Shown: piece after piece, positions 23,742 through 34,207 of the stretch
Numbering within the stretch: the first letter of the stretch is position 1
How the letters are laid out: every line of letters begins with the position of its first letter
IMG/VR virus record: IMGVR_UViG_3300013285_000041
Span: 1-34,418 of that record
DNA: 34,418 nt
Strand: one strand, 5' to 3'
Origin: a virus
The notes under the pieces: generated by a model
What the model saw: the letters and a program-made list of their open reading frames with translations, nothing else
Database searches by the model: none
What the model was told of the DNA's origin: nothing
Position numbers and translations under genes: made by a program

Positions 23742-24977
23742 ATGATTTCTGTTTTTACACCCAGTCACGACCCAAAGTACTTAGATGAGGCTTACGAAAG
23801 TCTAAAAAAACAAACACTTTCCGACTGGGAGTGGGTTGTTGTTCTTAACGGAAAAGCAAAGTGGTCCTGTGACGACAAGCGCGTTCACATCAGTTACGCC
23901 AAGCCACAACTAAATGGTAGCGTCGGCGCCTTAAAGCGCGAGGCCGTCTCCCGTTGTACAGGGGATATTTTAGTTGAATTTGACCATGATGACATTCTTA
24001 TGCCTACGTGCCTTGAAAAAGTAGAAAAAGCATTTAAGGATAACCCAAAAGTTGTATTTGTTTATTCTGATTTTGCTCAGATTAATGCTGACTCTACTCC
24101 AAATTTTCAAATGTTTGGTCCTGACTTTGGTTGGGAATATCACCAGGAAGACGGATACAACGTTTGCCACGGTATGGAGCCAAGCCCGCACAACGTTTCT
24201 TACATTTGGTACGCACCAAATCACGTTCGTTCTTTTCGCGCCAGCGCCTATGAATCCTCTGGTGGCTACGCTGAAGAATTAAAAGTTTTGGACGACCAAG
24301 ACATTATGTACAAGATGTATCTTCAAGGTGAGTTTTTTCACATTAAAGAAAATCTTTACCTACAGCGTGTTCACCCAGAAAACACACAAGCAAGGTCGGA
24401 CATTAACCCGTTTATACAAACGGAGACAGTTCGCATGAATGCGCAAACCATTCAACCAATGCTTCTTAAATGGTGTGAGCGCAATAACCTTATGGCACTA
24501 GACCTAGGTGCTGCTCACAACCCAACACCAGGGTACACCACACTTGACATGCACGAACCAGCAGACCTTGTTGGTGACGTGTTTGAAATTCTTGAAAGTC
24601 TTGATGACAATACGGTTGGCGTTATTCGCGCCGTTGACTTTTTAGAACACATCCCAGACAAGATTCGTCTTTGGAATGAGATGTACCGAGTTCTTGCTCA
24701 CGGCGGAATGATTTTAAGTCTTACGCCAAGCACAGATGGTCGCGGTGCCTATCAAGACCCGACTCACAACAGTTTTTATAATCAAAACAGTTTTTGGTAT
24801 TTTGCTGATATTAACTATCGGAATTTTGTCCCTGAATTAAAAATGGACTTTCAGGTAAGCGTTCTTTCAACATACTTTCCGAGCGACTGGCACAAAAAAC
24901 ACGACATTCCCTACGTTAACGCCAACCTTATTTGCATTAAGGATGGCGGGCGCCAAGGGGGCCTACTAGGAGTTTAA
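23742..24977 (+). CDS. Bifunctional glycosyltransferase (GT-A) / SAM methyltransferase (411 aa)
   Basis: Residues 1-225 form a GT2-type glycosyltransferase: ISVFTPSHDPKYLDEAYESL (nucleotide-sugar-binding strand and helix), the metal-binding acidic motif FDHDD (80-84), and a WYAPNHVRSFRASAY segment with downstream ELKVLDDQDIMYKM. Residues about 250-400 form a class I methyltransferase: ALDLGAAHNPTPGYTTLDMH (glycine-rich SAM loop) and AVDFLEHIPDKIRLWNEMYR with a following GG and LTPS, as in type 11 methyltransferases. It should transfer a sugar and methylate a glycan or the modified target. Position in the baseplate operon with an own promoter suggests modification of virion or host surface sugars; the substrate is unknown. 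It is likely cytoplasmic, with no signal peptide. Confidence 0.88.
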   Translation: MISVFTPSHDPKYLDEAYESLKKQTLSDWEWVVVLNGKAKWSCDDKRVHISYAKPQLNGSVGALKREAVSRCTGDILVEFDHDDILMPTCLEKVEKAFKDNPKVVFVYSDFAQINADSTPNFQMFGPDFGWEYHQEDGYNVCHGMEPSPHNVSYIWYAPNHVRSFRASAYESSGGYAEELKVLDDQDIMYKMYLQGEFFHIKENLYLQRVHPENTQARSDINPFIQTETVRMNAQTIQPMLLKWCERNNLMALDLGAAHNPTPGYTTLDMHEPADLVGDVFEILESLDDNTVGVIRAVDFLEHIPDKIRLWNEMYRVLAHGGMILSLTPSTDGRGAYQDPTHNSFYNQNSFWYFADINYRNFVPELKMDFQVSVLSTYFPSDWHKKHDIPYVNANLICIKDGGRQGGLLGV

Positions 24978-25631
24978 ATGGCTGAACCAATTACAGGTTT
25001 AACAGCGACATGGGTAAAGAATCAGGGAATCCAACTTAATTGGACTGCCGCAATAGACGTAACAACAAGTTCAATTTATGAAGTTTACGTTCTTACCAAT
25101 GCAAACCAATATGTTCCAACTTGGTCATTGTCAACAACTCTTAAAGCAAACGTATTTCGCAGTTACAAACAAACTTCGTACAGTCTTTCTAATCCAGTAA
25201 CTTTGTACTTGTTTCCATTTCCCACAAATGTTGAAAATTCATATACATTTAGAATTACACACACTGACTACTTAAAAGCAGAAAGCACGGCAGCAACAAT
25301 TTCTGTTTTTCAAAACCAGGTTATGTCAAAAAATGGACCAATTCACTTTGCCAATATGACGGGCATTGACCCATATGGACAATTCTTGGTAAATCTTCAA
25401 GATTCCTACGAAGAAATTGCAGAAAGCGTTTCCATGATTCTTGGCACAACCACTGGTGAGCGAAGCGTTGTTCCAACTTTTGGAATTGACGACCTTCCCC
25501 TTACCGAAATAAGCGCCTACGAAATTCAAAGCGCAATAACAAAATGGGAACCACGCGCACAAGCGGAAGTTTCTATAAAATACGACAATAACAATAACGC
25601 TTCTATAAGCGTAAAACTTGCTAACAATTAA
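24978..25631 (+). CDS. Baseplate wedge protein gp25-like with N-terminal FN3-like domain (217 aa)
   Basis: The N-terminal 110 residues look like an FN3-like beta-sandwich (GLTATWVKNQGIQLNWTAAI, then YEVYVLTN and YTFRITHTDYLKAES). The C-terminal 100 residues carry gp25/GPW features: YGQFLVNLQDSYEEIAESVS, MILGTTTGERSVVPTFGIDD and the AITKWEPRAQAEV strand with conserved WEPRA. gp25 proteins are in the core of the baseplate wedge where sheath assembly starts. AGGAG lies five bases before the ATG, and the previous stop ends directly before it. The domain fusion is unusual; a stand-alone gp25 is about 110 residues. Confidence 0.85.
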   Translation: MAEPITGLTATWVKNQGIQLNWTAAIDVTTSSIYEVYVLTNANQYVPTWSLSTTLKANVFRSYKQTSYSLSNPVTLYLFPFPTNVENSYTFRITHTDYLKAESTAATISVFQNQVMSKNGPIHFANMTGIDPYGQFLVNLQDSYEEIAESVSMILGTTTGERSVVPTFGIDDLPLTEISAYEIQSAITKWEPRAQAEVSIKYDNNNNASISVKLANN

Positions 25632-25642
25632 GGAGGTTTAAG

Positions 25643-28306
25643 ATGACAGATTATATTGACATTCCAGTGGTCGCTGATACTGATGTTTTAATCCAACAAG
25701 CACTGACCTCCATTGCGGCAAACATTCCGGGTTGGGTACCTCGTGAAGGAAACCTTGAAGTCTTGCTAGTTGAGCAATTTGCTCAGATGGCAGCAGAGGC
25801 CGCTACGGTCGCTTCTGGCGTACCCTCCTCTATCTTTAAGTACTTTGGTGGCCTTATTGGTATTGCCCCAAATACAGGAACACAGGCAGAAATCTACACT
25901 CAGTGGACATTGGTCAACAATGCGCCTACTGGTGGATATATCATTCCCGCTGGAACTTATGCCGGATTCTTTTATTTGGGCGCCGCTTACCTGTTTCAAA
26001 CAGAAACAGACAGTACATTTGCCTCTGGCACAAACATTCTTACAATAAAAATGCAAGCGGTTACCGTTGGTTCTGCGTACAACATTCAAAATGTTGCAGG
26101 AATTAACCCGCTTTCTACGTACCTTCAGTTGCAATATTCTGACCCAAACGTATCTAGCATTATTGTTTCAGCAACAACCGCCAATGATTCAACACTTGCT
26201 TTTGGAACAGACGCAGAAACAGATAAAGCATTTCTTAGTCGTTTGACTGGCGAACTACAACTACTTGCGCCACGTCCTATTACCCCAAGCGACTACGCCC
26301 TCTTTGCTCAAAATCTTGCTGGCATTTACCGTGCGCAAGTCTTTGATGGTTTTAACCCACTAACAAACCGCCTGTCTACCGCTGACGCAAACTTTCTTAC
26401 TGCCAGCACATCTGGCTCAACTCCGCTTAATTGGTCAACTTTTGGCAATGGAACCATTGCACTTCCAACAATCTCAACGCCGGGAACAGCGCCACAAAAC
26501 TACCTACAACTTACATCATCTTCAAGCGCAACATTAAATGGCGCTCTTTTTAATTCAACAACCCTTGCAGGAGCAACTTCTTTAACGGTTACCGTTGGAA
26601 CTGGTTCAATTAGCACATCTGTAAGTTCTGTAAACCCCGCAATCATTCTTGTTAATGATGCAATTAACGGCAATGAAACAATTGTTGTAACAGCAGCGGC
26701 TTCTAAGTCCGGTAGCGGTGGAACTGCAACACAAGTTTTAACCGTTGCATCCCCAGGATTTAAATACGCACACGGAACCTCGGCAACAGCAACGCTTCTA
26801 CAAGGTGCTGTTGTTCCAAACGTAACCAATCTTTCCGCTAACACAAACTGGTATCAATCAGCCGCCGTTGTTCAAGCAGGTTCTGCAACAACAGCAACAA
26901 CCAGGGCTTATGTGGTCTCGGTTGCAACATACATTGACGGTTCGGTTTACGTTCACTCGTCTAATCATAAATTTGATGATTCTTTGTACTGCTACACATC
27001 TGGACCAAAAACCCTTGTGTGCAAAATACCTTCTGTTAACGTAAATTCTGTTAATTTTCTTACGCAAGACGCTAACGTTACGGAAATTTATCAAAACCTC
27101 AAACCGTATGTAACCTCAATTCAAACATACATTGCTTTTGCAACAACAGAAACGTCAAAGACTTACAAGATTTTTTACAACTCTTTAAATCAAGTTCAAC
27201 TAGACCTTACGGGTGCGGAAAATCCAACCATAACAACAAGTAAGTACAATTTTATACCAGACGCAACATTTAGTAATTACCTTTACACAAATGGTTCTGG
27301 TGCGTCCTGGACCAATCCCGCAGGAACAACGGTTCTTCCAAATTATGGTGTTCAATATTTGGGAACCAGTTCTGCTCTTGGAAGTAGCCTAACAGTTGCT
27401 TCTCAAATATTTAATCTTTCTTACGTAACAACAGACGTTCCTAGCGCAACTTCTCGCACCTATACGTTCTTTGCCAACATTGACGCTAGTTACGCCGGTC
27501 TAACCTACAACGACGTTATTGTTAAGGTTGTTGATGCTTCAAACACCAGCACGGTTTTGGCAACGTTAAGCCCAACTTCAGCAATATCTGGAAAGTTTTT
27601 GACAACATTTACGTTGTCCGCTCCAAAAGATGTTCAAGTTCAAATTGTTTTTGCCTCTGGTCTTAACGTTCCTCTCGGTTCAAGCGCCATTGTTTCTAAC
27701 GTTGGAATCATTCCTGGTTCTTACACGGTATACACAGTTCCAACATACGGACAATTTAACTACTTTTGGACTCCAGGTGGTCTTTACGACCCCAACACGT
27801 TTAACTACCCGCGCAACGTAACGCTTGCGCCAGTTAATGTTAACGGACTTGCTGTTGCGCCAACTGTTGCCTACCAACTTATTGACTACCTCGCCTCTCG
27901 TCGCGAAATCAATTTTACTGTTCAATCAATTAACCCAAGTTACGTTCCAATTGACATTCAATACTCTGTTTTTGTTGCGCCAACATACACATCTGCTGCG
28001 GTTCAAACTTCAGTAAGCAACGCAGTTAGAACTTACCTAAGCCCTGCAAATTGGGGTGGTGGTTCAAACACTCCCGCGTTCTGGGATGGCGCATCAACAA
28101 CAGTTCGTGTAATGGACATTGCAGCAATTATAGGAAGCGTTCCCGGTGTGTACAGCGTTGTTTCGGTCTTAGCAAAAACCTCTTACGGTGGCTCATACTC
28201 AACTAACGACATTGCTCTTAACGGCATTGCACCGCTTCCAATTGCCAATACAATTACTGGAACTATTTTTACCAACAGTAATAATGCTTATAGTGGACTT
28301 GGCTGA
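25643..28306 (+). CDS. Baseplate wedge protein gp47/J-like (gp6 family) with large insertion (887 aa)
   Basis: N-terminal 1-240: TDYIDIPVVADTDVLIQQAL, the PREGNLEVLLVEQFAQMAAE helix, GAAYLFQTETDSTFASG, VGSAYNIQN and ETDKAFLSRLTGELQLLAPR, all baseplate J-like. C-terminal from about 700: PVNVNGLAVAPTVAYQLIDY, INPSYVPIDIQYSVFVAP and a final VPGVYSVVSV. Between them about 450 residues of Ser/Thr/Asn-rich beta sequence are inserted, including a jelly-roll-like stretch at about 605-690 (SRTYTFFANIDASYAGLTYN, then LTTFTLSAPKDVQVQIVFAS). A perfect AAGGAGGT site precedes the ATG. Wedge proteins bridge the hub and the sheath; the insertion probably faces outwards. Confidence 0.87.
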   Translation: MTDYIDIPVVADTDVLIQQALTSIAANIPGWVPREGNLEVLLVEQFAQMAAEAATVASGVPSSIFKYFGGLIGIAPNTGTQAEIYTQWTLVNNAPTGGYIIPAGTYAGFFYLGAAYLFQTETDSTFASGTNILTIKMQAVTVGSAYNIQNVAGINPLSTYLQLQYSDPNVSSIIVSATTANDSTLAFGTDAETDKAFLSRLTGELQLLAPRPITPSDYALFAQNLAGIYRAQVFDGFNPLTNRLSTADANFLTASTSGSTPLNWSTFGNGTIALPTISTPGTAPQNYLQLTSSSSATLNGALFNSTTLAGATSLTVTVGTGSISTSVSSVNPAIILVNDAINGNETIVVTAAASKSGSGGTATQVLTVASPGFKYAHGTSATATLLQGAVVPNVTNLSANTNWYQSAAVVQAGSATTATTRAYVVSVATYIDGSVYVHSSNHKFDDSLYCYTSGPKTLVCKIPSVNVNSVNFLTQDANVTEIYQNLKPYVTSIQTYIAFATTETSKTYKIFYNSLNQVQLDLTGAENPTITTSKYNFIPDATFSNYLYTNGSGASWTNPAGTTVLPNYGVQYLGTSSALGSSLTVASQIFNLSYVTTDVPSATSRTYTFFANIDASYAGLTYNDVIVKVVDASNTSTVLATLSPTSAISGKFLTTFTLSAPKDVQVQIVFASGLNVPLGSSAIVSNVGIIPGSYTVYTVPTYGQFNYFWTPGGLYDPNTFNYPRNVTLAPVNVNGLAVAPTVAYQLIDYLASRREINFTVQSINPSYVPIDIQYSVFVAPTYTSAAVQTSVSNAVRTYLSPANWGGGSNTPAFWDGASTTVRVMDIAAIIGSVPGVYSVVSVLAKTSYGGSYSTNDIALNGIAPLPIANTITGTIFTNSNNAYSGLG

Positions 28307-29364: not shown

Positions 29365-29423
29365 TGATAAAAACTTGTATTCGCAATCATGATTATGAAA
29401 TAACTCAAATAGGAGGCTACTAA
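29364..29423 (+). CDS. Possible 19-codon micro-ORF bridging gpI-like and fibre genes
   Basis: ATG ATA AAA ACT ... TAC TAA encodes MIKTCIRNHDYEITQIGGY. Its ATG overlaps the upstream stop (TAATG), and its stop overlaps the fibre ATG (TAATG), so it fits the gap exactly. AGGTGG lies before it. Its last codons include the AGGAGG that serves the fibre gene. It may be a translated leader that couples translation, or simply a spacer. Confidence 0.4.
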   Translation: MIKTCIRNHDYEITQIGGY

Positions 29424-30586
29424 TGGCCAGTGGTTTAACAAGCAGGGCACACGTCCCCTATCCTCTAAGCAGCGACTCTGCTGTTATTGCTTCTGACATT
29501 CAGGGCGTGGCGCAGTTTATTGACAACAACGTACCTACGTACGTTCAATCAGCGACTCAACCAGCAACGCCCGTAAACGGTAATGGTGAATTTTGGTGGT
29601 GTACAGATAACACCGTTGCAAACTATGGTATTAATTACTGGAATGGTTCTGTTTGGATTAACATTACAAGTCAAATGTTTGTGGTTGGTTCAACAACACC
29701 TTCGCCCGCATTTTCTGGACTTGTTTGGTACGATACGTCAACGGTTAACGGGAACCTTAAATACTGGAATGGTTCTACTTGGGTTAACATTATTCCATCA
29801 ACCACAACCAATGGTCAAGTTCTTACATCAAGTTCTGGCGGACTTGTTTGGCAAACTCCAACGGCGGTTGGAAATGCTGGTGGTGACCTTACGGGAACAT
29901 ATCCTAGCCCAACTTTAGTTGCAACGGGAACTGCTGGAACATACGGCTCAGCAACCGCCGTTCCAACAATTACTACAGACTCAAAAGGACGTGTTACGTC
30001 AGTAACAACAAACGCGCCGATTGATGCAACCAAGTTTCCTCTTTCTGCTTACACAGCAGCCGGAGACATTATTTACGGAACAGGCGTTTCAACCAATACA
30101 CGCCTTGCCCTTGGAACCGCTGGTCAATATCTTATTGTTAACCCAGGCGCCAGCGCCCCACAATGGTCAACGTTTGCACTACCAGCACAATCAGTTTTGA
30201 TTTCTCCATTTGAACAAGCAAACATTGTAAGTTCTGCTGCAAACGGAAGCCTTGCATTGTATGTAAATACATCAACTTTTTACTACTACAACACTGCGGC
30301 TACAGCAAATTTTACTCTTAATATTACTGGCGGGGTATCAACAACTCTTAACTCACTTATTTCTGTTGGTCAATCGGTAACCGTTACCATGATGAATACA
30401 AATGGCTTAACGCCTTACTATTTAACTCAATTAAAGATTGACGGAACCAATGTAACACCACAGTGGCAGGGTGCTTTTGCTCCCGGCGCTGGAAATGCTT
30501 CATCAACGGATACATACTCATTTATGATTCTCAAGACGGCTGCAAACACTTATAAAGTTTTGGCTTCCTTGACACAATTTGCTTAA
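29423..30586 (+). CDS. Tail fibre-like protein (387 aa)
   Basis: The N-terminal LTSRAHVPYPLSSDSAVIAS region resembles fibre attachment parts. Two copies of a short repeat follow: GEFWWCTDN...YWNGSVWINI (about 54-82) and GLVWYDTS...LKYWNGSTWVNI (about 98-125). Next come TTTNGQVLTSSSGGLVWQT and GGDLTGTYPSPTLVATGTAG with TTDSKGRVTSVTT, a well-known phage fibre repeat. The C-terminal 150 residues are a Ser/Thr/Asn-rich beta domain (YVNTSTFYYYNTAATANFTL, then TYKVLASLTQFA). Probably trimeric and involved in host contact. A strong AGGAGG precedes the start. Confidence 0.8.
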   Translation: MASGLTSRAHVPYPLSSDSAVIASDIQGVAQFIDNNVPTYVQSATQPATPVNGNGEFWWCTDNTVANYGINYWNGSVWINITSQMFVVGSTTPSPAFSGLVWYDTSTVNGNLKYWNGSTWVNIIPSTTTNGQVLTSSSGGLVWQTPTAVGNAGGDLTGTYPSPTLVATGTAGTYGSATAVPTITTDSKGRVTSVTTNAPIDATKFPLSAYTAAGDIIYGTGVSTNTRLALGTAGQYLIVNPGASAPQWSTFALPAQSVLISPFEQANIVSSAANGSLALYVNTSTFYYYNTAATANFTLNITGGVSTTLNSLISVGQSVTVTMMNTNGLTPYYLTQLKIDGTNVTPQWQGAFAPGAGNASSTDTYSFMILKTAANTYKVLASLTQFA

Positions 30587-30594
30587 GGTAAAAA

Positions 30595-31911
30595 ATGCCT
30601 ATAACCTCAGGTTTCAACGGGGCTTCAACCCGCGCAGAAGGATTTATTTCATCATTCATAGCAAAAGTCTATGACGGTTTTGCGCGCGTCACAACCGGCT
30701 CTCTTGGAAAAGCAACCCTTGGACAGGTTTGGGTTCAAAACAATGGTGTTTGGACTTCTAACAATGGTGTCGCGGTAACTTTGACAGCAGCGTCTAATTA
30801 CCCATACGCAACTGTTCCTTTTAAAACAAATGGAACAATTTCTGCGCAATCTGTAAGTCAAGGAGCCGGTGTTGTTTTCTGGCAGTCTGGTGCAAACGAT
30901 TGGTGGGCTGCAACAACAAGCGGAACCTCTGGAACTTATATTTCTAGTTACACTTGTAATGCAAATGCTTGTTGCACAGGTTCAAATAATTGTGTTTCAA
31001 ACGCTTGTTGTACTGGCTCTAACAATTGCACATACAGCGCAACTTGCGGAGCCGGTTATTATTCTGGTGCTCCCAATTCATGTTGCAGCGGTTCAAATAC
31101 TTGTTCTGAAAGTTTTACTTGCGGAGCGGCAAACAATTGCGTAGAAAGTTATATTTGTGGCTCGTATTACGCAGGTGTTATTAGTTATTGTTGCACTGGA
31201 GCAAACAATTGCACTTATTCTGCGACATGTGGTGAAAAAACAACATACGCCTACGCCAATCCTTGTCCTGCATATGGTGGAAAAACATTTGCTTGTCCGT
31301 TTTATTACGCTGGTGCTCCAAACAGTTGTTGCACCGGTAGTAATTTTTGTACTTACTCTAACTTTTGTGGTAGAGTAAGTACTTTTGGTTACAACGCTTG
31401 TTGCACAGGTTCAAATTACGCAGGTGCATATAATTCTTGTTGCACAGGTTCAAACTATTGCACATACAGCGCAACTTGCGGAGCCGGTTATTATTCTGGT
31501 GCCCCAAACAGTTGTTGCACAGGTTCCAACAACTGCGCAAGTAGCAGTTGTTGTACTGGTTCTAACAACTGCGCTTCAAACGCTTGTTGTACTCAAACAG
31601 CAAACTACAGCACCTCATGGAATTGGTTTCTTAACATTATTAAGTCTGTTTCCGGAACGGTCAGCAATGTTGCCAATAGCGTTCTTGCAACATCATACTC
31701 AAACACAAATGGAATTAGTGGAATAAAAGTTACTACAAGTAGTACAAGCGTATCTGCTCAAGGCTACAGCGACACCGGATTAACAACAACTGTTGGCTCG
31801 CCAGTAACAGCAACCGCACCATCACAACCAACTGGAAAGGGCGTAGGAATAATTGTTACGCCTGGTGGAACAAATCAAGGAAACTCAGTCGGACCATTTA
31901 CGGCCCAATAA
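30595..31911 (+). CDS. Cysteine-rich repeat adhesin inside a concanavalin/LamG-like domain (438 aa)
   Basis: Residues 1-118: a beta domain with YDGFARVTTGSLGKATLGQV, AGVVFWQSGANDWWAAT, like the D-x-F-x-R...LG...G-x-x-W start and GVVFW-x5-W strand of secreted concanavalin/LamG-like domains. Residues 121-332: about 210 residues with 38 cysteines, ten Cys-Cys pairs and nine copies of CC(T/S)G(S/A)N, mixed with CTYSATCGAGYYSGAPNSCC units. Residues 333-438 return to beta sequence (WNWFLNIIKSVSGTVSNVAN ... TTVGSPVTATAPSQ) that would complete the sandwich. The Cys-rich block thus appears to be a giant loop in the carbohydrate-binding domain. It lies last in the fibre genes. The N-terminal parallels and length do not match any family I know in full; receptor binding is likely. 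Confidence 0.8.
   Translation: MPITSGFNGASTRAEGFISSFIAKVYDGFARVTTGSLGKATLGQVWVQNNGVWTSNNGVAVTLTAASNYPYATVPFKTNGTISAQSVSQGAGVVFWQSGANDWWAATTSGTSGTYISSYTCNANACCTGSNNCVSNACCTGSNNCTYSATCGAGYYSGAPNSCCSGSNTCSESFTCGAANNCVESYICGSYYAGVISYCCTGANNCTYSATCGEKTTYAYANPCPAYGGKTFACPFYYAGAPNSCCTGSNFCTYSNFCGRVSTFGYNACCTGSNYAGAYNSCCTGSNYCTYSATCGAGYYSGAPNSCCTGSNNCASSSCCTGSNNCASNACCTQTANYSTSWNWFLNIIKSVSGTVSNVANSVLATSYSNTNGISGIKVTTSSTSVSAQGYSDTGLTTTVGSPVTATAPSQPTGKGVGIIVTPGGTNQGNSVGPFTAQ
31025..31070 (+). repeat. 46-base direct repeat, copy 1
   Basis: Identical over 46 bases to 31457-31502. The sequence begins ATTGCACATACAGCGCAAC and ends ATTCTGGTGC and encodes CTYSATCGAGYYSG. It marks an exact copying event within the cysteine-rich block. 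Confidence 0.9.
31457..31502 (+). repeat. 46-base direct repeat, copy 2
   Basis: Exact second copy of 31025-31070, 432 bases downstream, in the same reading frame. Copies diverge immediately outside, as expected from recent recombination or gene conversion. Confidence 0.9.
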
Positions 31912-31925
31912 AATAAAGGATATAT

Positions 31926-32411
31926 ATGACAGACGTAAGACAAAACATAGTTGCATGGGCTAAGTGGGCTGCGGCTAACCACGCTAAGTTTAATTACACA
32001 GAAGGCCCTCAACGCATGAGTGGAATTAACAAACCGGGCGTTTTACCGGTTTATGCTGATTGTTCAGCCTTTGTTACCCTTTGCTACAACTGGGCTGGCG
32101 CACCAGACCCTAATGGCACGAGTTACAACCACACTGGTTACACCGGAACACTTTTAGCGCATGGTAAGAAAATTGCTTTGAAAGACGTACAACCTGGCGA
32201 CGTTATTGTTTACGGTGGCGGCACTGGAGAACACACAGCACTAATCGTTGGCGTTGACGGTAGCAACAACCCTCTTACAATCTCTCACGGACAACAGGGC
32301 GACCCTTCGTACTGCCACGTCAGCCAAGATGGTCGCTTACCTCAGACTTACCTTCGCTTCAATACCAACGCCATTGCTGATAGCAACATACACACACCTC
32401 CGAAGGCATAA
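31926..32411 (+). CDS. NlpC/P60-like endolysin / peptidase (161 aa)
   Basis: A cell-wall peptidase. Cys46 stands in YADCSAFVTLCYNWAG (the nucleophile motif D-C-S-x-F-V), His103 in GEHTALIVG, and His121 in ISHGQQGDPSY, the order of NlpC/P60 catalytic residues. It starts MTDVRQNIVAWAKWAAANHA with AAAGGA upstream. There is no signal peptide or cell-wall-binding domain, so export should depend on a holin. Position after the fibre genes and before three membrane proteins fits a lysis cassette. Confidence 0.85.
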   Translation: MTDVRQNIVAWAKWAAANHAKFNYTEGPQRMSGINKPGVLPVYADCSAFVTLCYNWAGAPDPNGTSYNHTGYTGTLLAHGKKIALKDVQPGDVIVYGGGTGEHTALIVGVDGSNNPLTISHGQQGDPSYCHVSQDGRLPQTYLRFNTNAIADSNIHTPPKA

Positions 32412-33472: not shown

Positions 33473-34207
33473 ATGGCCGAACGCATTGCAGGACTTAGGG
33501 GCAAGGCCCCCGCAGAACACTTAGCAATGGGAACTCTTGAACATTACATCAAGGGAACATTGTATACACCGCCACGTTCACTCGACTATTCAAACAAAGT
33601 CAAGAACTACCCAATGGCACTTAACGACACCTATGGTGATTGCACCATTGCTGGTGTTATTCACATGCTTCAACTTGTTTACGCCGAAATTGGCGAAGAA
33701 TTTGCCTATCCAGGCGATGAAGAAGTAAAAGAAACATATTTTAAGTTATCCAACAATAGAGATAGCGGTCTTGTGGAGCGCATGGTTCTTGACACATGGA
33801 TGAAAGAAGGGTTGTTTGGCAACAAAATTTCTGCCTACGCCCCGGTAAACATTAAAAACCGTAATGAAATAATGGCGGCTATTTATTTGTTTGGCTCAGT
33901 GTACCTTGGTGTAGAAATGCCACCTAACGCTGAACAACAATTTCAAGACCACGAACCGTGGCACATTAATAATTTTCCAGAACAAGCCGTAGGCGGTCAC
34001 TGTGTTGTTGCAACTGGCTACAACCGTTTTGGAATTGACATTATTACATGGGGCGCTACGGAATCTATGACGTGGGGTTGGTGGGAAGAATACGGCTCAG
34101 AGGCTTGGGTTGTTATTCCAGAAATTTTTGTTGAAGCAGACCACGGCCCAGTATGGAACATTGACATTCTTACACTACAACAGGATTTAAATAACCTTGA
34201 CAACTGA
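33473..34207 (+). CDS. Papain-like cysteine protease homologue (244 aa)
   Basis: Pattern of the papain/C1-C39 type: Cys57 in NDTYGDCTIAGVIHMLQ, His176 in AVGGHCVVATGYNRFG, followed by a strand with ITWGATESMTWGWWEEYGSE. The G-D-C and G-G-H motifs are clear. The asparagine after His is less so, so activity is unproven. AAAGGA precedes the ATG. It may cut host or virion proteins, or act as a second wall peptidase, since it lies right after the holin candidates. It overlaps the next gene by 11 bases. There is no signal peptide. Confidence 0.75.
   Translation: MAERIAGLRGKAPAEHLAMGTLEHYIKGTLYTPPRSLDYSNKVKNYPMALNDTYGDCTIAGVIHMLQLVYAEIGEEFAYPGDEEVKETYFKLSNNRDSGLVERMVLDTWMKEGLFGNKISAYAPVNIKNRNEIMAAIYLFGSVYLGVEMPPNAEQQFQDHEPWHINNFPEQAVGGHCVVATGYNRFGIDIITWGATESMTWGWWEEYGSEAWVVIPEIFVEADHGPVWNIDILTLQQDLNNLDN

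Follow-up and report, generated by a model that had tools for sequence, protein, structure and literature searches.

The cysteine-rich block of P0001, a 438-residue putative virion protein, is self-complementary: the order of cysteine types along its first half is the mirror complement of the order along its second half. The protein was encountered in a 34.4-kb virus record (the window, i.e., the whole stretch of DNA analysed). It is interpreted here, with a probability of roughly two in three (0.68), as a tail-module lectin-like adhesin bearing a two-arm, disulfide-zippered stalk that is laid down in this mirror code.

Reading frame and genomic context

The ORF of P0001 is uninterrupted from ATG to stop. 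Homologues with 69% and 51% identity conserve the reading frame, and the codon differences from the nearest homologue are mostly synonymous, both at the start of the block (16 synonymous, 2 non-synonymous) and in its last two units (14 synonymous, 3 non-synonymous); the ORF is therefore very probably translated, and the concern that the frame might be untranslated found no support. All 38 cysteines of the protein are located within residues 121-332 (positions 30955-31590), which contain ten CC pairs and, nine times, the motif CC[TS]G[SA]N; this direct count agrees with the original prediction. The block contains 18% cysteine, compared to a mean of 0.6% in the remaining genes listed for the window (binomial P ~1e-42), and the autocorrelation of its cysteines peaks at 6, 12-13, 18 and 24-25 residues. 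No obvious signal peptide was seen when the N-terminus was read by eye. P0001 has no match in Pfam at E<=1, its best match in PHROGs has an E of 0.16, and none of these sequence families names the protein as receptor-binding. The 31 relatives gave no convincing match to Pfam and PHROG models.

Genes for terminase, portal, major head and tail tube are located upstream of the block ORF, which closes the tail/baseplate gene cluster: the gp25, baseplate J and fibre-like genes lie upstream and a putative endolysin gene lies downstream (Table 1). The gp25 and baseplate J genes suggest a contractile tail. An ORF with family 2 glycosyltransferase and methyltransferase domains is found amid the baseplate genes (23742-24977). 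Another ORF (33473-34207) matches phrog_19005 (unknown function, E 2e-21), and is conserved downstream of the endolysin in the related phage contig L001. Collagen-like GxQG repeat proteins are encoded close to the adhesin gene of the related phage contigs L002 (approximately 836-2906) and L001 (from 8105).

Table 1. Features of the P0001 gene and its neighbours, in positions of the window
Feature	Positions	Strand	Basis
438-aa putative virion protein (P0001), lectin-like sandwich with inserted Cys block	30595..31911	+	ORF, homologues, predicted fold
Predicted N-terminal sandwich half, residues 21-120; its final strand, 102-123, enters the block	30655..30954	+	AF2 pLDDT 90-98 mostly
Predicted C-terminal sandwich half, residues 333-438, from inside strand 332-352 onwards	31591..31908	+	AF2 pLDDT 87-97
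Left arm (FFABAABA), residues 121-212	30955..31230	+	Module string, pairing
Tip, residues 213-244, with left-over Cys pair 224/234	31231..31326	+	Cys positions, pairing
Right arm, residues 245-332, complement of the left arm when reversed (FFBABBAB)	31327..31590	+	Module string, pairing
First half-module CNANACC (C121, C126, C127), predicted partners C331, C326, C332	30955..30975	+	Pairing rule
Last half-module CASNACC (C326, C331, C332), partner of first	31570..31590	+	Pairing rule
gp25-like baseplate wedge protein	24978..25631	+	Pfam PF04965 E 2e-8; PHROGs
Baseplate J-like protein	25643..28306	+	Pfam PF04865 E 7e-14
Preceding gene, fibre-like protein of unknown function	29423..30586	+	phrog_5906 match
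Following gene, NlpC/P60-type putative endolysin	31926..32411	+	Pfam PF00877 E 3.5e-5

Flanking domain and insertion site

With an alignment of 31 homologues, AF2 modelled both flanks as one domain (pLDDT ~87-98 over most of residues 21-125 and 330-438) and placed the block between strands 102-123 and 332-352. Mean pLDDT was 34.6 when only six sequences were used. The 25 further homologues repaired the flanks, not the block, for which pLDDT is about 23-50 for most residues and no fold was obtained. The nearest solved fold to the flank domain according to VIA-align is CBM66 (4b1m; Z 17.0, 152 residues, rmsd 2.5 A), followed by the mycobacteriophage Douge central fibre (Z 15.7) and then by many lectins. 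Foldseek against the PDB by itself gave no significant match, and when the PDB was searched with a profile of the 31-sequence alignment, only chance-level matches came up. The HMM comparison that had been proposed for the LamG/concanavalin families turned out negative, as no lectin/LamG Pfam family was hit at E<=0.1 by any of the 31 members. The claim that the flanks are the two halves of one concanavalin/LamG-like sandwich is supported by the single predicted domain and by its structural alignment, which makes the sandwich CBM66-like. Searching BFVD with Foldseek identified six significant relatives, all of them uncharacterised proteins of uncultured Caudovirales phages (A0A6J7WYT9, A0A6J5KM36 and others; E 2e-20 to 4e-11, 17-26% identity), which probably belong to the same domain family. 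In fold, the flanks resemble Bacillus subtilis CBM66 and the Douge gp20 C-terminal domain, at only 10-12% identity. We know of no cysteine stalk in either protein.

The family was collected by scanning for the NDWWA/NNWWA motif that precedes the block. In the insert-free homologues L071 and L107 the same site holds a 13-residue loop; L016, L101 and L141 carry Cys-free, Tyr/Thr-rich inserts there, and L144, L078, L147, L067, L068, L127, L072 and L113 carry Cys-rich inserts of many kinds. Because the type of insert varies at one and the same place, the block is an insertion at a fixed, fast-changing site between two strands of the sandwich. This reading is supported, and the insertion of the block into the fold had been anticipated in the original prediction; both the 13-residue loop of the insert-free homologues and the bounding strands of the AF2 model speak for it. 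The inner units and the tip are the most divergent parts among the homologues, as one would expect if a variable contact region stood on a fixed base. The Cys-free relatives L016, L101, L105, L111, L141 and L077 have long inserts of alternating Tyr, Thr and Ser (YTYAYTY...), as expected of a long disulfide-free beta ribbon.

The number of cysteines per insert is even in 22 of 23 clusters (range 4 to 54; the exception, L084, has 5), with P 3e-6 if the clusters are independent. Clusters were defined as below about 80% similarity, and the 54 cysteines of L013 are a separate count, as the automatic search missed the end of its insert. The inserts of L078 (20 Cys) and L083 (18 Cys), not among the clusters listed, are also even. 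Such even counts point to disulfides.

Mirror complementarity of the cysteine order

A half-module was defined as C(a)-x4-C(b)C(c). Type F (CxxxxCC) has a, b and c; type A is without b (Cx5C, as in CTYSATC); type B is without a, leaving the CC pair of b and c, which follows YYSGAPNS or NYAGAYNS; type O has a single Cys. The definition was derived from the same sequences to which it was applied; L399 alone came later than the mirror idea. Module strings were read by a parser with fixed spacings and without a tunable threshold. It replaced an earlier unit parser based on a spacing threshold, with which L015 fails below 9, L014 fails at 6 and 11, and P0001 drops to 7/8 above 9. The resulting strings are FFABAABA-OO-BABBABFF for P0001, FFAAFFABFAA-BBFABFFBBFF for L013, FFOBABA-BABAOFF for L014, FBBBABA-BABAAAF for both L015 and L399, and FFABABABAOOABABFF for L012.

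Mirror positions are complementary (F opposite F, A opposite B, O opposite O) at 9/9 in P0001, 11/11 in L013, 7/7 in L014, 7/7 in L015 and 6/8 in L012. When these five homologues (without L399) are pooled, 40 of 42 positions are complementary, compared to about 13 by permutation (means per homologue 1.8-3.9; P, in the above order, 6e-5, 3e-5, 5e-4, 5e-3 and 6e-3); the combined Fisher P of ~3e-12 is too optimistic since the proteins are related. L399 scores 7/7 and was found after the mirror idea, but is an orthologue-like relative of L015: the two blocks share 30/30 cysteines and 89/143 other residues. Both misses in the strict fit of L012 vanish if CAIYEYLPC is read, as we read it, as b and c seven residues apart. 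A plain mirror and a register shifted by one fit far more poorly than the complementary mirror. Unit lengths follow the same register, a shift by one unit being worse in all five homologues; in L014 the summed length difference of mirrored units is 2, where 19.4 is expected (P 1e-4).

That the mirror is partly a by-product of similar end repeats and a small unit alphabet, in a block that is a flexible low-complexity spacer, appears improbable. Several homologues do share FF ends, the unit types number only three or four, and the AF2 model shows no order in the block; against this, permutations that preserve the unit types still yield the P values given above for P0001 and L013, positions with A or B are complementary in 26 of 28 cases, and shifted registers fail. 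DNA inversion cannot produce an amino-acid mirror in which roles are exchanged, and we therefore read the mirror as indicating that the two arms pair physically.

The pairing rule a-b', b-a', c-c' leaves zero cysteines over and predicts 19 bonds in P0001, 27 in L013 and 15 each in L014, L015 and L399; in P0001 the two cysteines remaining in the tip, 224 and 234, would pair with each other. Pairing c with c' in direct register, between units of equal number in the two arms, was rejected, as it leaves one Cys unpaired per end and fits the unit lengths less well. A simple palindrome test on inter-Cys gaps detects no signal in the CCTG class (P 0.14-0.84), to which it is blind because the partners swap roles; of the other insert types, L144 is matched by 0/300 shuffles and L127 has P 0.007. 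Cys-rich inserts with other motifs at the same site of L144 (7643-8848), L147 (5161-6093), L067 (minus strand), L078 and L068 look self-complementary. The arms of the L147 insert contain CACGNGVPDTMNCCC in one and CACGNGVADSMSCCC in the other, and CNNG..PTY is present in both arms of the L144 insert. Contig IMGVR_UViG_3300002301_000018 carries L014 and L015 as two diverged copies ~14 kb apart; their module strings differ (FFOBABA and FBBBABA, respectively), and each is self-complementary.

The mirror complementarity, which the original prediction does not mention, favours disulfides over metal. A metallothionein-like metal-binding or free-thiol region would account for the many CC pairs and the 18% cysteine, and a reducing cytoplasm would leave the thiols free, but the even counts in 22/23 clusters and the paired loss of partners are what disulfides, not metal clusters, lead one to expect. 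No His or acidic pattern was noticed when the block was read by eye, and this explanation is considered very improbable.

The block could also be a single-chain disulfide beta-solenoid of the Tenebrio molitor antifreeze type (1EZG), built of 12-residue coils with a Cx5C disulfide of its own in each. The block shares the 12-residue period and the Cx5C spacing with that protein, and a string stitched from units of the window and of L013 matches TmAFP (1ezg, E 0.006). This match has a 40-bit composition bias and a query of our own composition, and is not used as homology; phmmer with the natural block gave no match. In TmAFP the bonds lie within a coil and there is no mirror pattern; such bonds would tie no half-module to a distant one, yet in the block A stands opposite B in mirror order. 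Units without the later Cys (CCTGSNYAGAYNS) would leave an unpaired Cys in a solenoid. In the block, units often lack one Cys and their mirror units show a corresponding lack, and many units have an extra Cys. A Cys pair in every coil, independent of distant coils, is thus not what the block displays. Finally, approximately 16 coils would, by our estimate, part the ends by tens of angstroms, while the block is bounded by strands 102-123 and 332-352, at whose ends the first and last half-modules sit. A solenoid is accordingly rated as unlikely, at about one chance in ten.

Proposed stalk, function and comparison with known systems

In the proposed structure, a short strand-to-strand loop of the sandwich would be replaced by a stalk made of a single polypeptide that runs out and back. 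Each arm would be a row of half-modules, linked in most cases by five residues such as TGSNN, and the arms would run antiparallel, with every half-module opposite its mirror partner and mostly two or three disulfides per module zipping them together. Bond c-c' would be invariant; a-b' and b-a' would be optional, and the joint retention or loss of their partners would place F opposite F and A opposite B. For P0001 the predicted bonds are 121-331, 126-326, 127-332, 133-319, 138-314, 139-320, 145-307, 151-308, 163-289, 164-295, 170-282, 176-283, 182-269, 188-270, 199-252, 200-258, 206-245 and 212-246, with 224-234 in the tip. It seems fairly probable that the code specifies two-fold-symmetric, three-bond [CxxxxCC]2 modules in a covalent double-stranded rod of 15-27 disulfides, whose length and module order shift by paired (compensatory) changes of the arms, much as in an RNA hairpin, here in a virus adhesin. 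Phage proteins are synthesised in a reducing cytoplasm, which counts against a disulfide stalk; the bonds might form after lysis or on the virion. The rigid, protease-resistant rod would then display its variable tip to glycans of the host surface. The sequences and the predicted model show an insertion in one fold, mirror complementarity and even Cys counts; disulfide bonds, rod shape, timing of oxidation and service as a glycan-binding adhesin are what we infer.

The protein is probably a host-glycan adhesin, by analogy with the Douge central fibre gp20 of the phage baseplate, whose domains bind host glycans (PMC13033339). Less likely is a paired stalk with a structural role, as spacer, fibre or particle stabiliser, rather than one in receptor binding. 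In favour of such a role, disulfides stabilise the tail of phage Milano (PMC10811340), a precedent for disulfides in virions. An adhesin is nevertheless suggested by the lectin-like fold near CBM66 and the Douge fibre, by its location where the baseplate/tail genes end, ahead of the putative endolysin, and by the fast change of inserts at a fixed site.

The original prediction would fail if the block were an ordinary independent domain, and no such case was found elsewhere among the matches listed. Searches of cultured phage genomes with tblastn gave no match. Among the matches listed for two-unit DNA patterns in bacterial genomes, the Cys-rich ORFs that were read are low-complexity or other-frame readings; in viral contigs the pattern added, among the matches listed, no new member. 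No description of the design was found in the open-licence literature on cystine ladders, cysteine-rich phage fibres and concanavalin.

The strands of the theta-defensin ladder are antiparallel, as proposed for the arms of the stalk. In that cystine ladder, disulfides tie two strands together (PMC13408038). The ultralong CDR H3 of bovine antibodies is a very long, diverse insert in a beta-sandwich loop, with a beta-strand stalk and a disulfide-rich knob (PMC8602281, PMC5994613). Its likeness to the block, a long and diverse insert at one loop of the beta-sandwich of a binding domain, is without homology; the cysteines are in the knob and the insert reaches up to about 70 residues, whereas here they are in both arms and the inserts have about 170-265 residues. 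Theta-defensins are small cyclic peptides with three bonds, but without CC, three-bond modules or a variable code. To our knowledge, a variable complementary code exists in neither, and the structural principle is new in kind, carried by a lectin-like phage domain of a known kind.

If the proposed structure is correct, a complementary pairing code would be spelled by amino-acid sequence alone, with compensatory changes across distances of up to about 265 residues, and phages would build very stable stalks of variable length upon a tail lectin. The block would be a disulfide scaffold of a new sort that follows one simple rule (F-F, A-B), and the formation of disulfides in virions would become testable. 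As AF2 fails there, the block is also a test case for structure predictors. The proposal would, moreover, account for an uncharacterised family of environmental phage proteins that is named by neither Pfam nor PHROGs.
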